A DNA stretch of 21,951 nucleotides from a virus: the IMG/VR virus record IMGVR_UViG_3300009160_000191, positions 1 to 21,951 of that record; one strand, written 5' to 3'. Positions 2,684-21,951 of this stretch are shown here, piece after piece. The notes below the pieces were generated by a model. The model searched no databases. It saw nothing but the letters and a program-made list of their open reading frames with translations, and was not told the DNA's origin. The position numbers were made by a program, and so were the translations under genes. Every line of letters starts with the position of its first letter. Position 1 is the first letter of the stretch.

Positions 2684-4229
2684 TAAAAAAGAAACATCTC
2701 AGAAAGCCATTCACGGCCCTGGGATTGATTTAGATTTTAGCACCGCACCAACAACATGGAACTTCTTACAGTCAGATGCATTCGTGCGTGGACTGATGGG
2801 TCCTGTTGGCTCTGGTAAATCCTATGCATGTGCCGCAGAGATTATGATGCGAGCAGTAAGACAAAAGCCATCTCCAGTAGATGGTATTCGTTATACACGA
2901 TTTGTCATTGTTCGTAACTCATATCCAGAATTAAAAACAACAACGATTAAAACATGGCAAGATTTATTTCCAGAGAATACTTTTGGACCAATGTTATACA
3001 CTCCCCCTATTACTCATCATATCCGTTTGCCATCTCGTGGTGAAGCAGCGGGTATTGATTGCGAAGTTATATTTTTAGCATTAGATCAACCTAAAGACGT
3101 AAGAAAACTTTTATCACTTGAATTGACTGGAGCGTGGGTAAATGAAGCTCGTGAACTTCCTAAAGCAGTTATTGACGGACTTACGCATCGTGTGGGTAGA
3201 TATCCGACTCAACGTGATGGAGGACCTACTTGGCATGGCGTGTGGATGGATACTAATCCAATGGATGATGACCACTGGTGGTATCGATTAGCTGAGAAGG
3301 ATAAACTTAATGGCAAGTATGCATGGCAATTCTTTAAACAACCTGGCGGTGTTATAGAAGTATCACCCGGTGATCTACCAGAGAATCCAGAAGCTAACGA
3401 TCATATATTTTCTGGCGGCCGTTGGTGGAAAATAAATAACAAAGCAGAAAACGTAGGAAATCTACCAGCCGGATACTATATGCAAATGCTTGGCGGTAAG
3501 AATTTAGATTGGATTAAATGTTACGCAGAAGGTAAATATACATACGTTCAAGAAGGTAGACCCGTATGGCCAGAGTATGATGACAGTGCCATGAGTGGTG
3601 AAGTTGAATACGACCCAGAGTTACCATTACAAGTTGGTTTAGACTTTGGTTTGACTCCAGCCGCAGTTGTTGGACAAAGATTAAACAATGGACGATGGAT
3701 TATCTTAGATGAGATTGTTACATTTGATATGGGACTAGAAAGATTTGGTCAGCAGTTATTAGCAGAGCTTAATGCTAGATACCCTAAAGCACAAATGCTA
3801 ATGTGGGGAGATCCAGCGGGTATGCAACGAGATGCTATTTACGAAGTGACCGCATTTGATTACTTACGCACATTGGGATTAAGAGCGCAACCTACACCAT
3901 CTAATGATTTTAAAGTAAGACGAGAAGCAGCAGCTGCACCTATGCAAAGACTTATTATGGGCAAGCCTGGACTTATGATTGCAACTAAATGCAAGATGAT
4001 ACGTAAGTCATTAGCGGGCGGCTATCATTTCAAACGTGTAGCAGTAGGTGCTGGACAAGAACGATTTAAAGATGCACCAAACAAAAACGAACACTCTCAC
4101 GTAGGTGATGCATTTGGATACTTACTTCTTGGCGGAGGAGAACATAAACGACTAACCAAGAGTCCATTATCAGCATCAACTATAATTGCACAAACTGTAG
4201 CAAGTAATGACTTCAACATATTCGATTAA
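2676..4229 (+). CDS. Terminase large subunit (packaging ATPase/nuclease)
   Basis: The 517-residue product contains both enzymatic halves of a DNA packaging motor. The ATPase half has a Walker A loop GPVGSGKS (42-49), a Walker B-like strand TGAWVNEARE (151-160), which has N-E where the textbook motif has D-E, as in many T7-type relatives, and a coupling segment MDTNP (191-195). The nuclease half has the RNase H-like acidic residues in GLDFG (D323), WGDPAG (D379) and HVGDAFGY (D478). It docks on the portal, translocates DNA into the prohead and cuts concatemers. The 3' end overlaps the next gene by 23 nt. The length is normal and no key residue appears missing. Confidence 0.95.
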   Translation: MANKKETSQKAIHGPGIDLDFSTAPTTWNFLQSDAFVRGLMGPVGSGKSYACAAEIMMRAVRQKPSPVDGIRYTRFVIVRNSYPELKTTTIKTWQDLFPENTFGPMLYTPPITHHIRLPSRGEAAGIDCEVIFLALDQPKDVRKLLSLELTGAWVNEARELPKAVIDGLTHRVGRYPTQRDGGPTWHGVWMDTNPMDDDHWWYRLAEKDKLNGKYAWQFFKQPGGVIEVSPGDLPENPEANDHIFSGGRWWKINNKAENVGNLPAGYYMQMLGGKNLDWIKCYAEGKYTYVQEGRPVWPEYDDSAMSGEVEYDPELPLQVGLDFGLTPAAVVGQRLNNGRWIILDEIVTFDMGLERFGQQLLAELNARYPKAQMLMWGDPAGMQRDAIYEVTAFDYLRTLGLRAQPTPSNDFKVRREAAAAPMQRLIMGKPGLMIATKCKMIRKSLAGGYHFKRVAVGAGQERFKDAPNKNEHSHVGDAFGYLLLGGGEHKRLTKSPLSASTIIAQTVASNDFNIFD

Positions 4230-4701
4230 CCCAGAAGTATTAGAAAACTTACCACACGTAAAAGGTTCATACTTTTTACCATTTCACGTAGATCATTTAG
4301 ATGAATTAGATAATCTTGATGAATATATACAATCTTTCGGGCTAGAAGGATTTAAAGCTCAAATTGCTGGACAAGCAACACGTGGTCCAGTCATTACAGC
4401 ATTTCTTTATGGTAAGCCAGTAGCAATATTTGGATGTGGATTACTATGGAATGGAGTGGCAGAAGTATGGTCTTTGCTGTCAGAGCAATCTAAGCGATAT
4501 CCAATGACCATGATTCGCGCGTCAAAAGCCTTTTTCGATATCTGTTGGATAACATTTAACTTGCACAGATTGCAAATATCTGTTAAAACATCTGATAATG
4601 TTGCTATGCGCTTTGCTCTAGCGTTAAAGTTTGAGCCAGAGGGCATTATGGCTAAGTATAGTCCGGCACAGGAAGATTTTACTTTATTTAGGAGATTATA
4701 A
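4207..4701 (+). CDS. T7 gp13-like internal virion protein (GNAT-like fold)
   Basis: The 164-residue product resembles the T7 gp13/DUF2833 group, which shares the GNAT acetyltransferase fold. A core strand pair AVIFG-like (PVAIFGCGLLW), then EVWSLLSEQSKRYP, a helix ending in FNLHRLQISVKTSDN, and the closing ALALKFEPEGIM correspond to GNAT beta4-alpha4-beta5. In T7, gp13 is needed for virion morphogenesis and infectivity rather than proven acetylation. No Shine-Dalgarno is visible before ATG 4207, which lies inside the terminase gene, so initiation is probably coupled. In T7 this gene lies in the tail block; here it sits directly after the large terminase. An active acetyltransferase cannot be excluded. 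Confidence 0.65.
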   Translation: MTSTYSINPEVLENLPHVKGSYFLPFHVDHLDELDNLDEYIQSFGLEGFKAQIAGQATRGPVITAFLYGKPVAIFGCGLLWNGVAEVWSLLSEQSKRYPMTMIRASKAFFDICWITFNLHRLQISVKTSDNVAMRFALALKFEPEGIMAKYSPAQEDFTLFRRL

Positions 4702-10844: not shown

Positions 10845-11459
10845 ATGGCAGCTGGAGATTCAGCATTATCAGTTTGTTCTGATGCACTAATATTATTAGG
10901 CGCAAAGCCTATTTCTTCATTCACAGAAGGCACTGATGAGTCATCTACTTGCGATCGTTTATATTACGATATAAGAGATCAAGCATTAATGATTTATCCA
11001 TGGTCATTCTCATTTAAAAAAGTTCAATGTGCTAGACTGGTCACTACACCGGTTACCGAATATACATACGAATATCAATTACCATCAGATAGATTAGGCT
11101 CACCAAGAGCAGTCTATGATGCTAATGAAGTAGGATCTCATCCAAGAAATGATTATAGAATCATGGGTGATAAGATTCTAACTAATTACGAAGAAGTATG
11201 GGTAGATTATCAATACTCTGTTACAGAGCCTAATATGCCTGTATATTTCATTCAATTACTTAAATATCTATTGGCATGGCATATATGTGTGCCTATTACA
11301 GACCAAGTAGATAAAGCTCAATATTGGCAAGGTGTAGCTATAGGATCACCAGGCGAAAATGGACGTGGTGGTTATATGCGTCAAGCTATGAATATTGATG
11401 GCCAAGGACAACCCATAAATGCTATACAAGACTTCTCATTGATTAATGTGAGGTATTAA
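10845..11459 (+). CDS. Tail tubular protein A (T7 gp11-like gatekeeper)
   Basis: The 204-residue product (T7 gp11 is 196) starts with a helix SALSVCSDALILLGAKPISS and contains DESSTCDRLYYDIRDQALMI (about 30-49) followed by YPWSFSFKKVQ. This is the hallmark arrangement of gp11-type proteins (A-L-x-x-L-G...Y...R...L-x-x-x-P-W-x-F). Twelve copies form the adaptor ring beneath the portal and hold the nozzle. GGAG at 10834-10837 precedes the start. It overlaps the gp12-like gene by TAATG. Confidence 0.9.
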   Translation: MAAGDSALSVCSDALILLGAKPISSFTEGTDESSTCDRLYYDIRDQALMIYPWSFSFKKVQCARLVTTPVTEYTYEYQLPSDRLGSPRAVYDANEVGSHPRNDYRIMGDKILTNYEEVWVDYQYSVTEPNMPVYFIQLLKYLLAWHICVPITDQVDKAQYWQGVAIGSPGENGRGGYMRQAMNIDGQGQPINAIQDFSLINVRY

Positions 11460-13462
11460 TGGCTCGTTTTGTTACAGTCCAAACAAACTTCACTACAGGC
11501 GAACTAGATCCACTATTAAGAGCGCGTATTGATTTAAAGTCTTACGAGAATGCATTAGAAACAGCTCAAAATGTATTCTGTCAGCCACAAGGTGGAATCA
11601 CACGTAGATCTGGCACTCGCTATATTAACTCACTTCCAAACACTAGCACAGATTCTGCTGCTAATGGTGTTCGTCTAGTTGCATTTGAATTTTCAACATC
11701 AGATAGTTATATGCTTTGCTTTACGCATAATCGTGCATATATATATAAAAATGGTGCATTAATTACCAATATTAATGGCACAGGAAATTCATATCTATCT
11801 ACATCTGGCGTTAGTTTAACATCAGCTAGATTAAATGAAATGTGTTGGACTCAATCTGCTGATACATTAATAATTACGCATGAAGATATTAATCCAGTTA
11901 AGATTGTTCGTGGCGCATCTGATTCATTGTGGACTGCATCAGCATTAACTTTTGATAGTATTCCTAAATATGCATTTACATTAGCATATAGTAATCCAGC
12001 TGGAACATTAACACCATCAGCCATATCTGGAAAAATTAAAGTTACAGCATCTACTGGAACTCCATTTTCTGCTGCATCAGTAGGTCAATATATTAATATT
12101 ACGCCACAAGGTCGTGCAAAAATAATCCAATATTTATCTGGCACAGAAGTTAATGTAGTAACAGAATTTCCATTCTTTGATACTACCGCTGTTGCTACTG
12201 GAAATTGGGAAATTGAATCTGGATATGAAAGTGTTTGGTCATCAACAAAAGGATGGCCAAGAACAGTATCTTTCCATCAAGGTCGTTTATATTTTGGAGG
12301 ATCTAAGTCAAGGCCATCTACTATATGGGGATCTGTTGTAGGGTTATTTTTCCAATTTGAACCAACAGAAGGGCTAGATGACGATGCTTTAGAAGCTACG
12401 TTAGATACTAATACGTTCAATGCCATTACAGATATTATTTCTGGACGAGATCTTACTATCTTTACAACTGGTGGTGAGTTCTATGTGCCACAAAATGGTC
12501 TAGAACCTATTACTCCATTATCATTCTTTGTGCAGTCTACTAGCCGTAATGGAAGTAAACCTGGCATACGAGTGCAACAACTTGAAGGTGGTGTTATATT
12601 TGTGCAAAGACAAGGTAAGTCATTATCTGAAATTGCATATTCTGATACACAGCTTACTTATGTTACATCAAAGATATCTCTATTATCTGGCCATCTATTA
12701 AAAACACCTAAACGCATGGCATTAAGACGTGCAGTAAATACAGATGAAAATGATTTACTTCTTATTGTAAATGGAAGTGATGGGACATTAGCATCATACT
12801 CATTAATGAGATCACAAAATGTTATAGCTCCATCAGAACTTGTAACATCAGAAGGATCATTTATTGATATTGGTATAGATCTTACTACAATTTATGCTGT
12901 TATTAAAAGAACTATATCTGGCACAGACCAATATTATGTAGAAAAAGTAGAGCAAGGATTATTAACAGATAGTGCTAAAACTGGTGGTGCAGCAGCATCA
13001 GTATCTATGAGCCATTTAGTTGGTAAAGAAGTTAATGTTATTCTTGATGGTATTGTGCAAGCTAACCAAACAGTAGCAGCCGGTGGAACAGTAACATTTC
13101 CTAGATCATCTACAATTTCTTATGAAGTAGGATTGCCAATTACAGTTCAAGCTACTACAATGCCTATAGATTTAAAAATTCAAACTGGAACACGTTTAGG
13201 CTTTAAAAAACGTATTGTTGAAGTTAATGCATTGGTATTAGAAACACAGAATATGGTAGTAAATGGCATTGAAGTCCCATTTAGATCATTTGATACACCA
13301 TTAACATTAGATGCAGATGTTCCAGAATTTACAGGGACTAAAGTATTGCACGGAATTCTAGGGTATAGTAATGAAGCTAAAATTACTATCACTCAGAGCG
13401 CACCATTAAAGTTTACCTTATTAGGTATGGAATATAAAGTAGCAGTTCACCAGGGGACATAG
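11459..13462 (+). CDS. Tail tubular protein B (T7 gp12-like nozzle)
   Basis: The 667-residue product has the diagnostic gp12 N-terminus: QTNFTTGELDPLLRARIDLK (8-27), YENALETAQNVFCQPQGG and ITRRSGTRYI, in which the G-E-x-x-P-x-L-x-x-R and G-G-x-x-R-R-x-G-x-x-Y motifs are clear. Downstream it is beta-rich, with the propeller-type segment SFHQGRLYFGGSKSRPSTIW near residues 274-293. It is shorter than T7 gp12 (794). Six copies would form the tail nozzle that contacts the cell surface and forms the DNA exit channel. It follows the gp11-like gene directly, as in T7. Confidence 0.92.
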   Translation: MARFVTVQTNFTTGELDPLLRARIDLKSYENALETAQNVFCQPQGGITRRSGTRYINSLPNTSTDSAANGVRLVAFEFSTSDSYMLCFTHNRAYIYKNGALITNINGTGNSYLSTSGVSLTSARLNEMCWTQSADTLIITHEDINPVKIVRGASDSLWTASALTFDSIPKYAFTLAYSNPAGTLTPSAISGKIKVTASTGTPFSAASVGQYINITPQGRAKIIQYLSGTEVNVVTEFPFFDTTAVATGNWEIESGYESVWSSTKGWPRTVSFHQGRLYFGGSKSRPSTIWGSVVGLFFQFEPTEGLDDDALEATLDTNTFNAITDIISGRDLTIFTTGGEFYVPQNGLEPITPLSFFVQSTSRNGSKPGIRVQQLEGGVIFVQRQGKSLSEIAYSDTQLTYVTSKISLLSGHLLKTPKRMALRRAVNTDENDLLLIVNGSDGTLASYSLMRSQNVIAPSELVTSEGSFIDIGIDLTTIYAVIKRTISGTDQYYVEKVEQGLLTDSAKTGGAAASVSMSHLVGKEVNVILDGIVQANQTVAAGGTVTFPRSSTISYEVGLPITVQATTMPIDLKIQTGTRLGFKKRIVEVNALVLETQNMVVNGIEVPFRSFDTPLTLDADVPEFTGTKVLHGILGYSNEAKITITQSAPLKFTLLGMEYKVAVHQGT

Positions 13463-13463
13463 T

Positions 13464-14117
13464 ATGAGTTTCTTATTACCAGCAGCACCAATATTAGCAG
13501 AAACAGCAGCAGCATCAGCGGCAACTACCGCATTTGGATCTACAGCTTTTTGGGCTGGGACAGCAGCAGCTGCTCCTATGGCAGCAACAAGTTTTGTGCC
13601 ATCATTATTGGTATCATCAACACCATCATTCTTTGGTAGCATTAGTAGTGCTTTTAATACTATTAAACCATTTATGGATGTTATATCTCCAGCAACTCAA
13701 GTGCTTAGTGGCATTAACTCTTTAAATGCTGGTCAAACACAAGCAAGCATGTATAAGTTACAGCAATTGCAATTACAAGCAAAAATTCAAAATGACAGAC
13801 TTAATCTTACAAGGCAAGGTAATGATGTGTTAAGAAGGTTAAACCAGTCTAATGCATCAGCAGCAGCACGTGGCTATGCTGGAGGCGTCAAAAGCTTTGA
13901 AGGATCAAGTGCATTGCTTATGGATATTAATACAAAATATGCTGGTCAAGATATGGAAACTATTCAGCAAAATATAGCAACATCATCAGCATATGGTCAA
14001 ATACAAGACAGCATGCTAACAACAGCATCAGACAAGGCTGTGTCTGGATCTTATGCAGACTTCTTTACTAGCGTAGGTAAAGCAGCTTATTTATATAGCA
14101 GTTTAAAAACAGTTTAA
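13464..14117 (+). CDS. Internal virion protein, T7 gp14-like
   Basis: The 217-residue product (T7 gp14 is 196) has a strongly Ala-rich hydrophobic N-terminal third (AETAAASAATTAFGSTAFWA, AAAAPMAATSFV) able to form membrane-active helices. A long helical region follows (YKLQQLQLQAKIQNDRLNL, VLRRLNQSNASAAARGYAGG), then the SFEGSSALL motif and a polar C-terminus. T7 gp14 is ejected first and inserts in the outer membrane as part of the DNA ejection channel. Composition, size and place between the nozzle and a gp15-like gene agree. Identity is by layout plus the G-V-x-S-F-x-G-S motif. Confidence 0.78.
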   Translation: MSFLLPAAPILAETAAASAATTAFGSTAFWAGTAAAAPMAATSFVPSLLVSSTPSFFGSISSAFNTIKPFMDVISPATQVLSGINSLNAGQTQASMYKLQQLQLQAKIQNDRLNLTRQGNDVLRRLNQSNASAAARGYAGGVKSFEGSSALLMDINTKYAGQDMETIQQNIATSSAYGQIQDSMLTTASDKAVSGSYADFFTSVGKAAYLYSSLKTV

Positions 14118-14126
14118 GGAATAGTT

Positions 14127-16337
14127 ATGGCAGACAGCCCACGTTATCAAAGAGCAAATTTAGTCTATGCTGATATGCCTAATATTCAGCCAGTAGATCT
14201 ACAGGAGCAACTTAACTCTAATAGACGTATTGGTGCTGCATTAGATACTATGACTAATATTACTACTGACATTGGTAAAAAATATGCAGTAGAAGCAGCG
14301 GCTAAATATAGTCTTGATAATCCTGTTACTCAAGAACAACTTATTGATGCCCAAAAGAACAATAGTAATCCAATTGCTAAAGATTTAAAAGGCGGCACAA
14401 TATTTAATGAAACGCTCAAGAAAGTTTATGCTCAACAAGCATCAGCAGAGTTTACTAACATTGCTTATACTCATTTTGAAGATGTAGATAAGCGAGTTAA
14501 AGATGGTGAACTAACTAATCCAGATGATATTAAGCAAGCACTTAATTCAGTAATTCAACCACAGCGTGATGTATTAAGCCAGATAGATGTAGAAACTGGG
14601 TTATCTTATGATGCTAAATTAAAGTCATATGCTAACACATACTATAAAAGCGCTTTAAATGAGCTTGATAAAAAAGCTAGAGAACGTATAGATTTAATGG
14701 CTGCTGATACAATGAAGATCCAAACTAAAATGTTTGAGAGTGATCTTGCTAATCAATATGATCCGATTGTAATAAAAGGATTATTAGACACAAGACTTCA
14801 AGATGGAGATACTACATTCAAACAAGGATCTCACAGAGAAGCATACAATAACCAATTACGCAAACAATTAGACTATTCAATTAATAATAAGTTTGCAGAA
14901 GATATGGCTAATACTTTTGGAAATGAAGGCGCTGCTATGCAGTCGTTAGAAAAAGGTAAGGCTGGCAAATGGACAGCATTTTGGAAAGATAAAACTGCTG
15001 ATGAGCAAGATGATCTTAGACAGTTTGTATTAAAAGAATTGCGCATTAAAAATGCCGGATCAGAAGAATTTGATCGTCAATATGCATCTAAGTTAAGTGC
15101 AGCTAATGATATGCTTACAAATGGATACCAGCCAGATGCAACATTATCTCAATGGCTTATCAATAATAGTTCATCATTAAAGCCAGACAGCGCTACAAAA
15201 GCATCAGCAAGTGCATTTAATCTTAAGCTAGATCAATTCAACAAACTTAATGGTATGAGCATGGGTGATAGACAAGTATATGAAGATTCTGTGCTTGCTA
15301 AGATTGGCCCTAATATGACCGCTGAAAATTGGCAAGTATATTCATTTATTAAGAAGTCTAATGAAAAATTTAATGAAAACATTAAAAAAGACTTTGTATC
15401 TACAATGAAAACTCAGAATGCATTTAGAGCTACATCTTTAAACTTTGCTGCACCAGATGATGTATTTCAAGGACAAGTAGATAATAGAATTAAACTTACT
15501 AAACAATTTGGCGCAATGAATAATGTTAAGCCATCATTTTTAGATGAAGGTGAAGTTGAATCATTAAAGATGTCATTAGACAATGCAAAGCCAGATGAAA
15601 GAATTGCAATCACAGGACGCATTGCCAAATCATTTGGTAATGATTCTCTTAGGGTATTTGAACAGTTAGCACCTAAAGATCCTGTTATGGCTCATATGGG
15701 AGTTCTTTATGCTAATCAATCTAATGATGACATTATTCGCAGACTAGCCAAAGGCCAAGATATTGTTAAGTCTGGATTTAAACCAGTAGAAGAAGCAACT
15801 ATGAAACAAGCTTCTATTAAAGATAGCATTGGTGATTCATTATATGCAGCTCCACAAAGTTATAATGCAGTAGTTAAAACAGCAGATACGTTGTATGCAG
15901 AAGAAGCTATGCGTAAAGGATTAACTTCATTTGATGGTGCAATATATAGCGAAAAGTTACAAGAAGCATCTGGAAGATCTGTGGGTGCTAATGGTAAGTA
16001 TTATGGTGGTGTTATTAAGTATAACAAATCAAAAGTTATTATTCCAAATTCAATACCACAAGATGACTTTGAAGATATTATGAACAAAGCCACTATTAAT
16101 GACTTTAGATTTTCATCTGACAATTTTGCGCAACGTGCAAATACTAACCAACTTATTGCAACAAATGGCAAAGAATTCTCATCTGATAAGATCAAAGATG
16201 CTAAGTTAGTTCCGGCTGGCAGAGATAACTTTATGCTTACTATTGATGATAGACCATTCTTGCTTAAAGATGGATCACCTTTATATATTAACGTAGATGT
16301 TCTATATAAGAAGCTTAGAAGCGAGAAACGTATTTAA
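14127..16337 (+). CDS. Internal virion protein, T7 gp15-like
   Basis: The 736-residue product (T7 gp15 is 747) is almost entirely charged, helical and without cysteines, signal peptide or hydrophobic spans. It opens with a YQRANLVYADMPNIQP segment, then a helical LNSNRRIGAALDTMTNI and many D/E/K/N-rich helices. No lysozyme, transglycosylase or ATPase motif was found. In T7, gp15 forms the periplasmic tunnel with gp16 after ejection. AAGGA at 14116-14120 is the ribosome-binding site, and the stop overlaps the next gene (TAATG). The call rests on length, composition and synteny. Confidence 0.72.
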   Translation: MADSPRYQRANLVYADMPNIQPVDLQEQLNSNRRIGAALDTMTNITTDIGKKYAVEAAAKYSLDNPVTQEQLIDAQKNNSNPIAKDLKGGTIFNETLKKVYAQQASAEFTNIAYTHFEDVDKRVKDGELTNPDDIKQALNSVIQPQRDVLSQIDVETGLSYDAKLKSYANTYYKSALNELDKKARERIDLMAADTMKIQTKMFESDLANQYDPIVIKGLLDTRLQDGDTTFKQGSHREAYNNQLRKQLDYSINNKFAEDMANTFGNEGAAMQSLEKGKAGKWTAFWKDKTADEQDDLRQFVLKELRIKNAGSEEFDRQYASKLSAANDMLTNGYQPDATLSQWLINNSSSLKPDSATKASASAFNLKLDQFNKLNGMSMGDRQVYEDSVLAKIGPNMTAENWQVYSFIKKSNEKFNENIKKDFVSTMKTQNAFRATSLNFAAPDDVFQGQVDNRIKLTKQFGAMNNVKPSFLDEGEVESLKMSLDNAKPDERIAITGRIAKSFGNDSLRVFEQLAPKDPVMAHMGVLYANQSNDDIIRRLAKGQDIVKSGFKPVEEATMKQASIKDSIGDSLYAAPQSYNAVVKTADTLYAEEAMRKGLTSFDGAIYSEKLQEASGRSVGANGKYYGGVIKYNKSKVIIPNSIPQDDFEDIMNKATINDFRFSSDNFAQRANTNQLIATNGKEFSSDKIKDAKLVPAGRDNFMLTIDDRPFLLKDGSPLYINVDVLYKKLRSEKRI

Positions 16338-18733
16338 TGAGCATTATCTATTCAGACATTAATATACAGCCGTATAAGTCAAATACACCAGTTCTAGGTG
16401 GTGAAGATACTGGTTTTCTGGAAAATATGCAAGCTGCTTATGATGCACAAGAATCATTTACAAAAGGAAGCGCATCAAGAACTATAGCATTTGATGACAT
16501 ATTTGCTCCTATTAGACAAAAAGTTATTGATAGATCTAATGTATCATCATTAGATAGAGTCAATATGTTTGGTGCTGATTCACGTAATCAATATGCATGG
16601 GCAGACAGAGATTATCCTAAATACGTCAATAATACACTTGACTATATAAAACAAAATCCAAGTCTTTTTCCAGAACCAGAGTTTCAAGGGTTAAGTTATG
16701 ACATCCTTGAGGGTAAAGCTATTGAAGGATCTAAAAAGAAGATAGAAGATCAAAAAGAAGTTGGAGCAAGACAAACATTCTTTGGTGGCGTTGGTGAGTT
16801 TATAGGTGATATTGGTGGTAATTGGTCCACAATGGATACATTTTCATTGGCAGTTCCAGAAGTTAAAGGCCCAGCTGTTATATGGCCTATAGTTAATAGA
16901 ATGTTTCAAAATACAATTGTTAATACTGGGGTTGAAGCAGCTAAATATCCAGATATTAAAGACTGGCAAGAAAAAGTAACTGGACAAGAATATGGATTTA
17001 AAGAATTTTTACAACATGAGAAAGATGTTGCTATTGGAACAATTGCATTGACTGGTGCATTTGAAGGTGCATTTAAAGTTCCATATAAAAAAGGATATCG
17101 CTGGACTAAAGATTCAATGCTTGAAGGAGTTGAAAAACTTCAAGATGTATATACTAAGAAATTTGGTGGTGATCCAGCAGCTAAAGCAGAGGCTATGAAA
17201 GACATTAATGCTATTAAAACACAAGATAGCATTGATAAATTTGTTAATGAATATAATCCTATTGCAGATGATGCTGGAGATATTGAACATAACAAACGAC
17301 TTAATCAAGTCAATGATGCTTTGGCTACAGGAAACTTTGATAAGCTTCCAAAAGAAACACCAACAATGAATCCTATTACAGATATTAATCATTTTGATCG
17401 CGCCAATCCAAATGTTAAATTCTATAATCCTAAAGATATTAAAGTAGATGCGGAAACATTTCAATTTAAAGCTGGTGGTAATGCAGAAGGTGTTACTGAT
17501 AGATTACAAGGTGTAACTCAATGGGATCCTATTAGTGCTAATACAGGCATTGTGTATGAAAAAGCTAATGGTGAAACATTTATTGTAGATGGGCATCAAA
17601 GATTAGCATTAGCTAAACGTATTACAGAATCAGATCCAGCACAAAAGATTGACTTTATTGCATTTCCATTAAGAGAGATGGATGGGGTATCTATAGAAGA
17701 AGCTAGAGTTATAGCTGCTATGAAGAATATAAGAGAAGGAACAGGAACAGCTATAGATGCTGCTAAAGTTCTTAAAATTGATCCAGCATTGTTAGATAAG
17801 TTGCCACCAACATCATCATTAGTTCGTCAAGCTAATGGCCTTATTAGACTATCTGACGATGCATTTAGATTGATTACCAACCAAATAATACCAGAACATT
17901 ATGGTGCTATTGTTGGAAATGTAATGACAGATCCTACAGAACAGATTGCTGCTATTGAGATGCTTAAGCGATTAGATCCGTCTAATACAAGACAAGCAGA
18001 ACAGATAGTCCGTCAAATGAAAGATACTGGATTTGTTAAGTCTACACAGGAAAGTCTATTTGGCGATGAAGTTATCTCTGAAAGCTTACTATTAGAACGT
18101 GCTAAAATATTAGACGCTGGAACATCACTATTCAAGACAGATAAGCTAGTATTCAAGAATCTTATGGAGAATGCAAATAAGATTGAGGAATCTGGCAATA
18201 TCTTAAATAGAAATAACAACGCAACCAATGAGGAAATATATGCCAAAGCAATCGAAATCACAAGGGCAAACGCCAATATCCAAGGATCCATATCAGAATC
18301 CCTTACTCGCATCGCAAGAGAATTTAAAGAAGGCGGAGGCAAAGGTTTACAAGGATACGCCCGCCAGTTCGCAGATGATGTCAAGCGATCAATTGAAGAC
18401 GGCAGTTACGAAAGGGTTCCAAATGGCGGACTTAGCAGCTTTGACGCAATTGAGAAGGAAGCAAATACGCTCAGCCCAGATGTAAAGAAAGAGTTAAGTT
18501 TATTTGATGAAGGCATTGGATCTAAAGGTGAAGTAGAGCAAACTAAAACTTTAGATACTGCAACAAAAGAAGAAATACAAATGGCACCGGAAATGAATAA
18601 TGCTGTTATTCATGTAGATGATATTGATCCAAATACAGGCATGCCATTTTCTAAAACACTTACCATGAAAGAAATCATGGATGATATTGCTCAAGACGAA
18701 AAAGCTATCAATAGATTGAAAGGCTGCATCTAA
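16337..18733 (+). CDS. Large internal/ejection protein with ParB/DdrB-like domain
   Basis: The 798-residue product lies where T7 begins gene 16. Residues 1-330 are helical, with a mildly hydrophobic span VAIGTIALTGAFEGAF (231-246). Residues about 360-470 look like a ParB/sulfiredoxin-type domain: FYNPKDIKVD, then GIVYEKANGETFIVDGHQRLALA with the signature DGHQR at 418-422, then DFIAFPL and SIEEARVIAAMKNIREGTGT. DdrB-like ParB domains of this kind are known in phage and plasmid polyvalent proteins delivered with DNA. Helical segments follow. Codons for about residues 620-717 differ strikingly from the rest (see findings). The C-terminus (TMKEIMDDIAQDEKAINRLKGCI) abuts the next gene by TAATG. 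Nuclease or DNA-binding activity is inferred. Confidence 0.7.
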   Translation: MSIIYSDINIQPYKSNTPVLGGEDTGFLENMQAAYDAQESFTKGSASRTIAFDDIFAPIRQKVIDRSNVSSLDRVNMFGADSRNQYAWADRDYPKYVNNTLDYIKQNPSLFPEPEFQGLSYDILEGKAIEGSKKKIEDQKEVGARQTFFGGVGEFIGDIGGNWSTMDTFSLAVPEVKGPAVIWPIVNRMFQNTIVNTGVEAAKYPDIKDWQEKVTGQEYGFKEFLQHEKDVAIGTIALTGAFEGAFKVPYKKGYRWTKDSMLEGVEKLQDVYTKKFGGDPAAKAEAMKDINAIKTQDSIDKFVNEYNPIADDAGDIEHNKRLNQVNDALATGNFDKLPKETPTMNPITDINHFDRANPNVKFYNPKDIKVDAETFQFKAGGNAEGVTDRLQGVTQWDPISANTGIVYEKANGETFIVDGHQRLALAKRITESDPAQKIDFIAFPLREMDGVSIEEARVIAAMKNIREGTGTAIDAAKVLKIDPALLDKLPPTSSLVRQANGLIRLSDDAFRLITNQIIPEHYGAIVGNVMTDPTEQIAAIEMLKRLDPSNTRQAEQIVRQMKDTGFVKSTQESLFGDEVISESLLLERAKILDAGTSLFKTDKLVFKNLMENANKIEESGNILNRNNNATNEEIYAKAIEITRANANIQGSISESLTRIAREFKEGGGKGLQGYARQFADDVKRSIEDGSYERVPNGGLSSFDAIEKEANTLSPDVKKELSLFDEGIGSKGEVEQTKTLDTATKEEIQMAPEMNNAVIHVDDIDPNTGMPFSKTLTMKEIMDDIAQDEKAINRLKGCI

Positions 18734-21231
18734 TGGCATTTAAAGATTGTATTGTTAATGGTCTTAAAGATGGTGACTTAACACCAGAACAAGCTAAAGC
18801 TGCTCAAGATGTATTTGAACAGCGCGAAGCTTTGCACAAGAATAATATGGGTGACAGTGCAGCAGAAGCTAAAGCAGCACAAGAAACTATTGAAATACTT
18901 GACTATGATAGATTACACAAGAAACGTGTATTGCTATTACAAAAATCAACTCAACAAGACATATCTAAAAAGCTATTTGGCCAAGAAGGTTATCGTGGCG
19001 GTAAAGATCCAGGCGCTGGTGCTAAAGCACTTATAGCTAAAGGTGATCCATTCTCAACATATAGCAATGTAGAAGCTAGACAAGCATCTATCTTTGGTCA
19101 ATTCCAATCTCAAATATCAGATGTATTAGCTACGTTCAGAGCAAGAGGATTAGGCTGGCATTCCAATGTAAATACATTGCATGATGTTGTGCGTGAACTA
19201 TGGGGAACTAATACAGGCAATAGTGCTGCTAAAGAAATGGCAGAGTCATGGTCTAAGGTAGGAGAGATGGCTCGTCAAATGTATAACGAAGCTGGTGGTG
19301 CTATTCCTAAATTAGATACATGGAGATTACCACAATCTCATAACATGGTAGCTGTAATGAAAGCTGGCCAAGAAGCATGGGTTAAATTTGTAACGCCATT
19401 GTTAGATCATTCAAAGATGATTAATGAGCGCACAGGAAAATCATTTACTCCACAAGAATTAGATCTAGCACTTAACGAAGTATTTAAGACGATTGGTGAA
19501 GATGGCTATAACAAGATGAAGCCAACTGGTGCTTTATATACAGGCCATAGATCATTAGCTAAACGCTATATGGATCATAGATTCTTATTATTTAAGAATG
19601 CTGATGATTGGATGAAGTATCAAGAGTCATTTGGAAACCCAGATACTTTTGCATCTATGAATCAATACCTACACAGAATGTCACATGACATAGCTATGAT
19701 GCAAGTGCTTGGACCAAATCCACATGCCACTATGAATTTTATTAGACAAAGTGTAATGAAAGATGCTCAAGAATTAAAGCTTAAATTACAAGATCAAAGC
19801 ATTGTAACGCGTGCAGAAGAAAATCTTAATAACATGGATGAGTTGTTTGATTTATACAACGGATCATCTTATGCATCAGCAGATCATTGGGTTCCAAGAA
19901 CTCTACAAGGAACACGTAACATAGTTAATTCTGCATTCCTTGGAAGCACAGCTATTACATCTTTAACAGACTTAGGTTTCCAAAAGCATACTGCTACTCA
20001 ATTAGGCATAGCATTTGGACCATTATTTAAACGTGTATTTAAAAACCTTAATCCATTGAATGTAGAAGAACGTGGAAAAATTGCATTAAGATCTGGACTT
20101 ATTGCTGAGTCATGGATTGGATTAGCACAGACACAAGCAAGGTTTGCTGGTGAGATGACAGGCCAACAAATTACACAAAGATTTTCTGATGTAGTAATGA
20201 GAGCATCTGGCCTTACTGCATGGACACAAGCTGGACGTCATGCATTTGGTATGGAGCTTATGGGTAATCTTGGTGATTTAGTAAGCAAGTCATTTGATAC
20301 TCTTGATCCTAGAATGCAAAAAGCATTAACTAGATATGGATTTGACAATGCATCATGGGATCTTATACGCCAATCAGAATTATATAACTATAAGGGCGCT
20401 ACATTCTTAAGGCCAGAAGAAATACGTTTAGCTACTCATATGCCTAAAGACCAAGCACAAGAGTTAGCATTACGATTCTTAGATATGGTAAATACAGAAG
20501 TAGACTATGCAGTGCCTACAGTTGGTTTAAGGGCTAAGGCTACACTTACTGGAGGAACTAAAGCTGGAACACTTCCTGGTGAGATTGTAAGAAGTTTTTC
20601 TATGTTTAAAAACTTCTCTGTTCAAGTAGCATACACACATTTATGGAAGTCAATGTCAGAAGCAACACTAGCTAAGAAAGCTGGATCATTAGCTGACTTG
20701 GCTATTGCTACAACTGCTATGGCTGCATTATCAATGCAACTTAAAGAGATAGCTAATGGACGTGATCCAAGACCAATGGATACCAAAGAGTTTTGGGGCG
20801 CATCATTCTTACTTGGTGGCGGCATGGGTATCTGGGGTGATTTCTTATTTAGTAATGTTAATCGTTATGGTGGTGGACTAGAAGATACTATTGCTGGCCC
20901 AGTAATTAACATGGCTAACTCAATTAAGAATCTTACTTATGGAAATGTGCAACAACTGATACAAGGCAAAGATACTAACTTTGCTGGTGAAACTTTAAGA
21001 ATGTTAGAAACATATATGCCAGGAAAAACATTATGGTATATGAAATTGTTATGGCAACGTCAGATGTTTGAAAGATTACATTTGTTTATTGATCCTAAAT
21101 ATCAACAAAGACTTAATAGTATGCAGACTAAATACCTTAAAGAAACTGGTCAGCATTATTGGTGGAGGCCTGGACAAGAATCACCAGATCGTGCGCCAGA
21201 GATATCTAGTGAAACTTTATTGACACAATAG
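18733..21231 (+). CDS. Large internal/ejection protein, polyvalent LPD38-like C-terminus
   Basis: The 832-residue product starts MAFKDCIVNGLKDGDLTPEQ and is helix-rich throughout. Hydrophobic helices near residues 654-672 (LADLAIATTAMAALSMQ) and 687-705 (FWGASFLLGGGMGIWGDFLF) could enter membrane, as gp16-type proteins do during ejection. The C-terminus, with PGKTLWYMKLLWQRQMFERL and then HYWWRPGQESPDRAP, resembles the end domain of large phage polyvalent/ejection proteins (LPD38-like; recalled, not searched). No soluble lytic transglycosylase motif (E-S...G-x-x-S-x-G-L-x-Q) was found, unlike T7 gp16. It is the last protein before the tail fibre, as gp16 is in T7. Together with the 798-aa protein it may replace gp16. 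Confidence 0.65.
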   Translation: MAFKDCIVNGLKDGDLTPEQAKAAQDVFEQREALHKNNMGDSAAEAKAAQETIEILDYDRLHKKRVLLLQKSTQQDISKKLFGQEGYRGGKDPGAGAKALIAKGDPFSTYSNVEARQASIFGQFQSQISDVLATFRARGLGWHSNVNTLHDVVRELWGTNTGNSAAKEMAESWSKVGEMARQMYNEAGGAIPKLDTWRLPQSHNMVAVMKAGQEAWVKFVTPLLDHSKMINERTGKSFTPQELDLALNEVFKTIGEDGYNKMKPTGALYTGHRSLAKRYMDHRFLLFKNADDWMKYQESFGNPDTFASMNQYLHRMSHDIAMMQVLGPNPHATMNFIRQSVMKDAQELKLKLQDQSIVTRAEENLNNMDELFDLYNGSSYASADHWVPRTLQGTRNIVNSAFLGSTAITSLTDLGFQKHTATQLGIAFGPLFKRVFKNLNPLNVEERGKIALRSGLIAESWIGLAQTQARFAGEMTGQQITQRFSDVVMRASGLTAWTQAGRHAFGMELMGNLGDLVSKSFDTLDPRMQKALTRYGFDNASWDLIRQSELYNYKGATFLRPEEIRLATHMPKDQAQELALRFLDMVNTEVDYAVPTVGLRAKATLTGGTKAGTLPGEIVRSFSMFKNFSVQVAYTHLWKSMSEATLAKKAGSLADLAIATTAMAALSMQLKEIANGRDPRPMDTKEFWGASFLLGGGMGIWGDFLFSNVNRYGGGLEDTIAGPVINMANSIKNLTYGNVQQLIQGKDTNFAGETLRMLETYMPGKTLWYMKLLWQRQMFERLHLFIDPKYQQRLNSMQTKYLKETGQHYWWRPGQESPDRAPEISSETLLTQ

Positions 21232-21287: not shown

Positions 21288-21951
21288 ATGGCTGATTATG
21301 CAATAACGAACGTAGCAAGACGAGTAGTATACACAGGATCTGCTGGTGTAGGCCCTTATGCCTTTACATTCCCTGTATTAATAAATACAGATATCGCAGT
21401 ATATAAAAATACTACACTTCTTACTTTAACGACAGACTACACTGTAACTATTAGCGGAACTACTGGTCAAGGATCAGTCACATTAGTATCAGCTGCTACA
21501 GGCACTGATCGTATTACTATTGTAGGTGCAAGATCTATTCAAAGATCAACAGATTTCGTAACTGGTGGTGACTTCTTTGCTAACACACTTAATACAGAAT
21601 TAGATTCAGAAACAATCTTTATTCAACAAATTGCTGAAACAGCAGAGCGTGGACTTAAAGCGCCTGTAACAGATCCAACGTCTATTAACATGACGTTACC
21701 ATTCAATACTGTTAGAGCTAATAAGTTCTTATCTTTTGATGCTAGTGGCAATCCAACAGTTAATAATGCAGTAGGAACATATAGAGGTAATTGGGCTGCA
21801 TCTACAGCATATATTGTTTATGACATTATTAAAGATACATCTAACAATAACATCTATATCTGCTTAACTGCACATACATCTACAGGCGCACAACCTATAT
21901 CAAGTAATGCTGACGTAGCTAAATGGTCACTTCTTGTAGACGCTGCTTCTG
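21288..21951 (+). CDS. Tail fibre protein, T7 gp17-like N-terminus (3' truncated by window)
   Basis: The frame opens at ATG 21288 and stays open to the window end (221 codons visible). Residues 1-150 have the T7-tail-fibre N-terminal layout that anchors the fibre to the tail: VVYTGSAGVGPYAFTFPVLI, then IAVYKN, DYTVTISG, GSVTLVSAATGTDRITIVGA and a helix (ANTLNTELDSETIFIQQIAE) before a flexible linker. From about 165 a compact Trp/Tyr module appears (YRGNWAASTAYIVYDI, NIYICLTAHTS, AKWSLL), like the small carbohydrate-binding-type repeats in phage fibres. AAGG at 21271-21274 and AAAGG at 21276-21280 precede the start. The receptor-binding part lies outside the window. Confidence 0.88.
   Translation, partial: MADYAITNVARRVVYTGSAGVGPYAFTFPVLINTDIAVYKNTTLLTLTTDYTVTISGTTGQGSVTLVSAATGTDRITIVGARSIQRSTDFVTGGDFFANTLNTELDSETIFIQQIAETAERGLKAPVTDPTSINMTLPFNTVRANKFLSFDASGNPTVNNAVGTYRGNWAASTAYIVYDIIKDTSNNNIYICLTAHTSTGAQPISSNADVAKWSLLVDAAS

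Follow-up and report, generated by a model that had tools for sequence, protein, structure and literature searches.

The product of orf798, encoded among the late virion genes of a short-tailed phage, contains a conserved central domain of about 330 residues which, as modelled, is of the ParB/Noc type, a more specific assignment than the one originally proposed for it. The joint reading put forward here, which we consider about evenly poised between right and wrong, is that orf798 would be an injected ejection protein of ParB/Noc type, acting as a non-hydrolysing nucleotide latch on DNA and as a chassis for cargo domains. If this is true, a DNA-clamp fold of the ParB/Noc type lies inside the protein set injected by short-tailed phages, in no fewer than 551 viral stretches from metagenomes and in genome assemblies that are mostly alphaproteobacterial.

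Gene order and the ejection module

The whole stretch of DNA analysed (the window) is a virus contig of 21,951 bases carrying late genes of the short-tailed phage type, arranged in the order terminase, head-tail connector, capsid region, orf204, orf667, orf217, orf736, orf798, orf832 and tail fibre (Table 1); orf204 is adaptor-like and sits before the nozzle-like orf667, and orf736 has no match in the family libraries searched. The two frames of 798 and 832 aa named in the original prediction were both recovered, the second directly following the first. Outside the ejection module, a 164-aa ORF after the terminase (4207-4701) looks by eye like a GNAT acetyltransferase, and in Acinetobacter phage TPWB-05 an annotated acetyltransferase gene is found amid the tail and internal-protein genes; a 114-aa ORF (996-1340) resembles by eye a RusA-type Holliday junction resolvase, and the start of the tail fibre (21288-21950) has a weak match to a carbohydrate-binding module (PF02839, 6.6e-4, residues 168-201).

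Table 1. Positions in the window of orf798, of its segments and motifs, and of the neighbouring genes.
Feature	Position	Strand	Basis or remark
orf667, tail nozzle-like	11459..13462	+	phrog_376, 1.1e-120; Phage_nozzle, 2.1e-4
orf217, internal-virion-protein-like (gp14-like)	13464..14117	+	phrog_418, 0.0014
orf736, upstream ejection-module protein	14127..16337	+	position alone, the same as that of phiV10 p18 and BcepC6B gp15
orf798, predicted ejection protein with ParB/Noc-type module	16337..18733	+	intact 798-aa frame
N-terminal helical region, residues 1-354	16337..17398	+	fast-evolving
ParB-type nucleotide-binding N-domain, residues 357-466	17405..17734	+	AlphaFold2 models; Foldseek to Noc/ParB, prob 1.00
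box-I-like FQFK, residues 375-378	17459..17470	+	Q376 and K378 invariant, 52/52
P-motif DGHQR, residues 418-422, equivalent of ParB GERR	17588..17602	+	G, H and R invariant, 52/52
KNIRE, residues 463-467, equivalent of ParB ENLQR	17723..17737	+	N invariant, 52/52; catalytic E replaced, 52/52
ParB/Noc-type helix-turn-helix and helical domain, residues 467-564	17735..18028	+	6y93 match; hhalign co-linear with chromosomal ParB
beta-hairpin followed by long helices, residues 565-690	18029..18406	+	AlphaFold2 secondary structure; conserved, dN/dS 0.04 vs L005
QESLF, residues 571-575	18047..18061	+	fits sliding-clamp-binding consensus; lead
insertion (cargo) site, residues ~736-766	18542..18634	+	short linker in the window; extra domains in most relatives
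C-terminal segment, residues 767-798	18635..18730	+	conserved past the insertion site; alignment of relatives
orf832, homologue of phiV10 p20, epsilon15-type virion structural protein	18733..21231	+	phrog_684, 1.1e-174

The region had been described as a T7-style ejection module; a podovirus ejection module it is, its type being that of epsilon15 and phiV10. The product of orf832 matches phrog_684, a family annotated as 'virion structural protein', and its homologues include p20 of phiV10 and proteins of 113 phage records. Since the phiV10 homologue of orf832 is a gene in its own right, and no match to T7 gp16 was obtained, orf798 and orf832 are not the two halves of a split gp16, as had been suggested. 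The association of the two genes is constant: 80 IMG/VR loci were fetched, 67 of which have an intact 3' end, and in all 67 an orf832 homologue lies directly downstream of the ParB-encoding ORF (in one case after a 293-base gap), a nozzle homologue being also present in 64. In epsilon15, a relative of phiV10, the ejection proteins form an internal core (PMC8954989, review); from gene order and homology, we infer that orf798 would be loaded into the head and enter the cell along with the genome.

Conservation and distribution of orf798

Residues 366-669 of orf798 match, in PHROGs, phrog_10691 (4e-62) and the C-terminus of phrog_21 (5.7e-23), and no family was recognised in the protein by Pfam and NCBIfam searches; a fusion to a portal domain, hinted at by phrog_21, was looked for among named phages and not found. 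By tblastn over 50,697 phage records, the domain was detected in 21, the carriers including Ruegeria phage 45A6 (47%), Dunaliella virus SI2 (41%), phage S31-C1 and 17 Prochlorococcus phages of the P-SCSP1 group; relatives are moreover encoded by at least 551 IMG/VR stretches and by 41 loci in bacterial genome assemblies, mostly of Alphaproteobacteria, and none was found in the plasmids searched. The motif DGHQR was found exactly where the original prediction placed it, and is the sole DGHxR across all six frames of the window; at the level of sequence, the conservation of the surrounding domain in relatives rules out a chance occurrence.

Conservation is unevenly distributed along the protein: mean identity among relatives is 59% in the ParB N-domain, which is the best-conserved section of orf798, 54% in the helix-turn-helix part and 23% in the N-terminus. 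Comparison of the window with relative L005 gives dN/dS values of 0.04-0.08 for the ParB and hairpin-helix segments, compared with 0.14 for the N-terminus, indicating that purifying selection acts on nearly the whole of orf798. For the N-terminal 354 residues, no relatives were found by tblastn of the phage collection; by hhalign, they weakly resemble the N-terminal part of phiV10 p19-type proteins (phrog_1145) (E 0.008, score 28.0, compared with at most 20.0 in 20 column shuffles), and the PHROG search gave no match to phrog_1145.

Structural assignment of the central domain

AlphaFold2 models were obtained for the full orf798 with 30 relatives (mean pLDDT 66.5, most of the central domain being at about 75-85) and for residues 355-690 with 52 relatives (pLDDT 83.9). 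With both models, Foldseek searches of the PDB returned ParB, Noc, Spo0J and KorB structures at the top (7nfu, 7bnk, 6sdk and others), the leading matches having a probability of 1.00, in agreement with the ParB-like fold that had been anticipated around DGHQR. The best match, 7nfu (E 2.3e-4, TMt 0.53), extends over ~220 aligned columns, which span both the nucleotide-binding domain and the helix-turn-helix domain, and the Noc DNA-binding domain alone (6y93) is matched with a TMt of 0.63-0.64; TM-scores by target are moderate (0.53-0.55), in line with a flexible two-domain protein. In the viral structure library, the model matches phage ParB/Spo0J proteins and the S31-C1 protein annotated as 'large polyvalent protein associated'.

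At the sequence level, the domain was compared by hhalign with 11 chromosomal-type ParBs, drawn from genomes that carry relatives of the orf798 domain, yielding a co-linear alignment of 134 columns (E 0.016, score 25.3, compared with at most 21.7 in 20 column shuffles) which pairs GHQR with GERR and KNIRE with ENLQR, and runs on through the helix-turn-helix; the hhalign probability is about 3%, so that the link is weak at this level, yet in register. PDB sequence searches, with the single sequence and with a profile, found no ParB, which was found by structure comparison alone, and the Pfam ParB_N profile (PF02195) has no match in the window. Since the orf798 family has no PF02195 match, a 2025 survey of the ParB-CTPase fold, which was searched with that profile (PMC12704722), is not expected to recover it. 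A ParB_N match in one relative was considered as possible support and set aside, since it falls in the cargo region and the main domains, taken by themselves, have no ParB_N match. As to the partners of a partitioning system, no palindrome resembling a parS or Noc site was found in the window, although the orf798 helix-turn-helix has diverged and its site may differ, and no ParA was identified among the window ORFs, part of which went through the family libraries.

The predicted nucleotide pocket

In the alignment of 52 relatives from which motif counts were taken, G419, H420, R422 and N464 are identical throughout, the P-motif taking the form GH[Q/N/H]R in 52/52; position 463 is never a glutamate, and H420 stands in place of the GERR glutamate in every relative, the comparison ParBs having GERR and EN[ILV]QR in 11/11. 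On our reading, FQFK would line up with the QPR of ParB. For the B. subtilis ParB, CTP binding depends on G77 and R80 of GERR and hydrolysis on E78 and E111, and PadC, which is devoid of equivalent glutamates, binds CTP and does not hydrolyse it (PMC8494293). The 2025 survey of the ParB-CTPase fold reports binders of CTP, ATP and GTP, which sequence does not reliably discriminate (PMC12704722). Given that the binding Gly, Arg and Asn are kept and that both hydrolysis glutamates are lost, the orf798 module is predicted to bind a nucleotide without hydrolysing it. The possibility of an enzyme, raised in the original prediction, is weakened by the same residues: none of the 52 relatives has either of the CTP-hydrolysis glutamates, so that gating of DNA binding by a nucleotide is a better fit than catalysis.

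The GHxR form occurs also in enzymes of the ParB/sulfiredoxin superfamily. A phosphotransfer enzyme resembling sulfiredoxin or SerK, with GHxR as its active site and a host protein or metabolite as substrate, would be compatible with the invariance of GH[Q/N/H]R and with a weak DUF1015 match in 12 of 35 domains (best E 0.0016), and both SerK and Srx are ParB-fold enzymes that bind ATP (PMC12704722). We nevertheless consider it very unlikely, because SerK and Srx have no helix-turn-helix (PMC12704722), which the orf798 family has, and neither appears among the 50 Foldseek matches listed in either PDB search.

Relation to DdrB

The description of the domain as DdrB-like has been abandoned, in that PF18763 has no match in the window, hhalign against a nine-sequence alignment of P1 DdrB type is not significant (E 0.25-0.27, in the wrong register), and the closest structures are canonical ParB and Noc proteins with their helix-turn-helix. 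A true ddrB-ParB domain (1.5e-42) is found in the corresponding gene (the slot gene) of Acinetobacter phage TPWB-05 (L100 3318-6164), together with a transglycosylase; this gene lies between a 'head protein' gene and the TPWB-05 homologue of orf832, and in the ddrB-ParB region its product shares 37% identity with P1 DdrB, the prototype of the domain, which has been reported to be packaged in the head (PMC5512222). Two branches of the ParB superfamily therefore fill one and the same place in the podovirus ejection module.

For the DdrB-like ParB domains of polyvalent proteins, Iyer et al. 2017 propose an NTP-regulated DNase (PMC5512222), and it could be argued that orf798 is a DNase or NTPase of this sort, cutting host or competing DNA or degrading NTPs early in infection, all the more so as a genuine ddrB-ParB domain occupies the same slot in Acinetobacter phages. 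The profile results above, the absence of both ParB hydrolysis glutamates and the presence of a helix-turn-helix domain, which points to DNA binding, make this alternative unlikely in our judgement.

The insertion site and the polyvalent relatives

An alignment of 30 relatives reveals inserts of about 290-560 residues at one site, with conserved sequence on both flanks; the site is empty in the window protein and in a few relatives. A Pfam match to Zeta_toxin was obtained in 8 of the 30 (best 4.6e-22), and in the proteins of L047 and L088 ParB_N matches lie within the insert. In relatives L022-L091, the site contains Zeta-toxin-like kinases, RelA/SpoT-looking domains or second ParB-like domains; the RelA/SpoT assignment is a reading of motifs, PF04607 being matched in 1 of 13 records, weakly (0.0027) and below the cut-off.

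More distant relatives fuse the domain with ART-PolyVal, GNAT, methylase, helicase, LPD38 and transglycosylase domains. In Ruegeria phage 45A6 (L008 12802-24540), a protein of 3912 aa joins it to helicase, methyltransferase, GNAT and LPD38 domains, and in Prochlorococcus phage P-SCSP1c (L011 10621-18336), gene 21 encodes an unannotated protein of 2571 aa with the ParB module; gene 21 of P-SCSP1a has been guessed to be an internal virion protein from its size and position only (PMC9860041). When several disparate domains were looked for in the window orf798 by means of the family libraries, one was found, the multi-domain state being that of the relatives. The best explanation of this pattern is that the family would be a delivery chassis, made of a constant ParB core and of one C-terminal site that takes effector domains in relatives. 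As the relatives are polyvalent proteins, the idea that orf798 enters the cell with the genome, already contained in the original prediction, appears to be sound.

These architectures bear also on the possibility that the module is a pilot element which binds DNA non-specifically and arranges the end of the packaged DNA, its action being confined to the virion or the ejection channel and no nucleotide-gated function being exerted in the cell. Gene order, co-inheritance with structural proteins and purifying selection on nearly the whole protein are all compatible with such a role; the pocket residues, however, are invariant across very different architectures, proteins of 2400-3900 aa included, and DNA organisation alone would not require an invariant pocket, which counts against this explanation and leads us to regard it as improbable.

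The QESLF motif

The consensus for binding to the bacterial sliding clamp is QL[S/D]LF or QxxLF (PMC12309361), which QESLF fits. The strict motif Q-x-[SDGNT]-[LM]-F is found in 41 of the 52 aligned relatives, with position 2 variable, and in 30 proteins 29 matches were counted versus 1.6 expected from a shuffle control, which ignores shared ancestry. After the ParB region of P1 DdrB (L102 2417-5404), a QGDMF sequence is present, at a place comparable to that of QESLF in orf798. Taken at face value, the consensus, the motif counts and the QGDMF of P1 DdrB would suggest that QESLF tethers the protein, once injected, to the sliding clamp (DnaN) of the host, the target being the replisome and not the phage DNA; this, however, seems to us quite improbable, given that the motif is absent from the cyanophage P-SCSP1 branch of the 52-relative alignment and that the control overlooks common descent. 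Since the domain model puts QESLF within a beta-hairpin, its conservation may be structural, and the motif is therefore treated as a lead only.

Proposed mechanism and its implications

According to the latch reading, orf798 would serve a podovirus of epsilon15/phiV10 type as ejection (pilot) protein and would bind a nucleotide, most likely CTP or ATP, probably via GHQR and N464. The lack of the hydrolysis glutamates leads to the prediction of a one-shot latch, in which the nucleotide-bound protein would close on DNA without recycling, as would suit a protein that acts once per infection. The likeliest substrate would be the entering phage DNA, to be held or shielded; the host chromosome or replisome would be an alternative one. 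In a bolder version, which we offer as tentative and on the whole rather doubtful, a widespread podovirus ejection family would deliver a hydrolysis-dead ParB/Noc switch that closes irreversibly on DNA ahead of all phage gene expression and serves as a chassis for swappable toxin-like domains, the target DNA being the incoming genome or host replication sites reached via the sliding clamp.

That the residues for binding are retained and those for hydrolysis lost offers a sharp and cheap biochemical test. From the ParB module, furthermore, a function can be suggested for giant proteins that lack annotation, P-SCSP1 g21 among them, and the fixed cargo site could reveal early-acting phage effectors from sequence alone.

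Comparison with known systems

The orf798 module shares with ParB, Noc, Spo0J and KorB the predicted fold over both domains, the G and R of the P-motif and the N of ENxQR; it differs from them in the replacement of both hydrolysis glutamates, in the lack of a PF02195 match, in being embedded in a phage ejection protein and in the lack of a recognisable parS in the window. PadC of Myxococcus xanthus is likewise reported to be a ParB fold devoid of the hydrolysis glutamates (PMC8494293); unlike orf798, it is a cellular protein with no phage ejection context. P1 DdrB (PF18763) and orf798 both place a domain of the ParB superfamily in a phage protein that is packaged or would be injected, but P1 DdrB reads ESGNGRT where the orf798 family reads VDGHQRL.

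The modules of epsilon15, phiV10 and BcepC6B have the same order of adaptor, nozzle, gp14-like protein, large protein, slot protein and phrog_684 protein as the window; their slot proteins, by contrast, are different, that of phiV10 being of 600 aa with no recognisable ParB domain and that of BcepC6B having a transglycosylase in place of the ParB domain. The slot gene product of VP2 is of 390 aa. P-SCSP1 g21 carries the same domain at the ejection-protein position, but is much longer than orf798, is about 30% identical to it in the domain and has no QxxLF motif. As for the polyvalent proteins (Iyer et al. 2017, PMC5512222), the window protein departs from them in that a single recognisable domain is present and the insertion site is empty, whereas its relatives, as polyvalent proteins do, mix the domain with several others, Zeta-toxin-like ones included; injected polyvalent-type proteins with a ParB-superfamily domain are an already known class, of which orf798 would be a new form.
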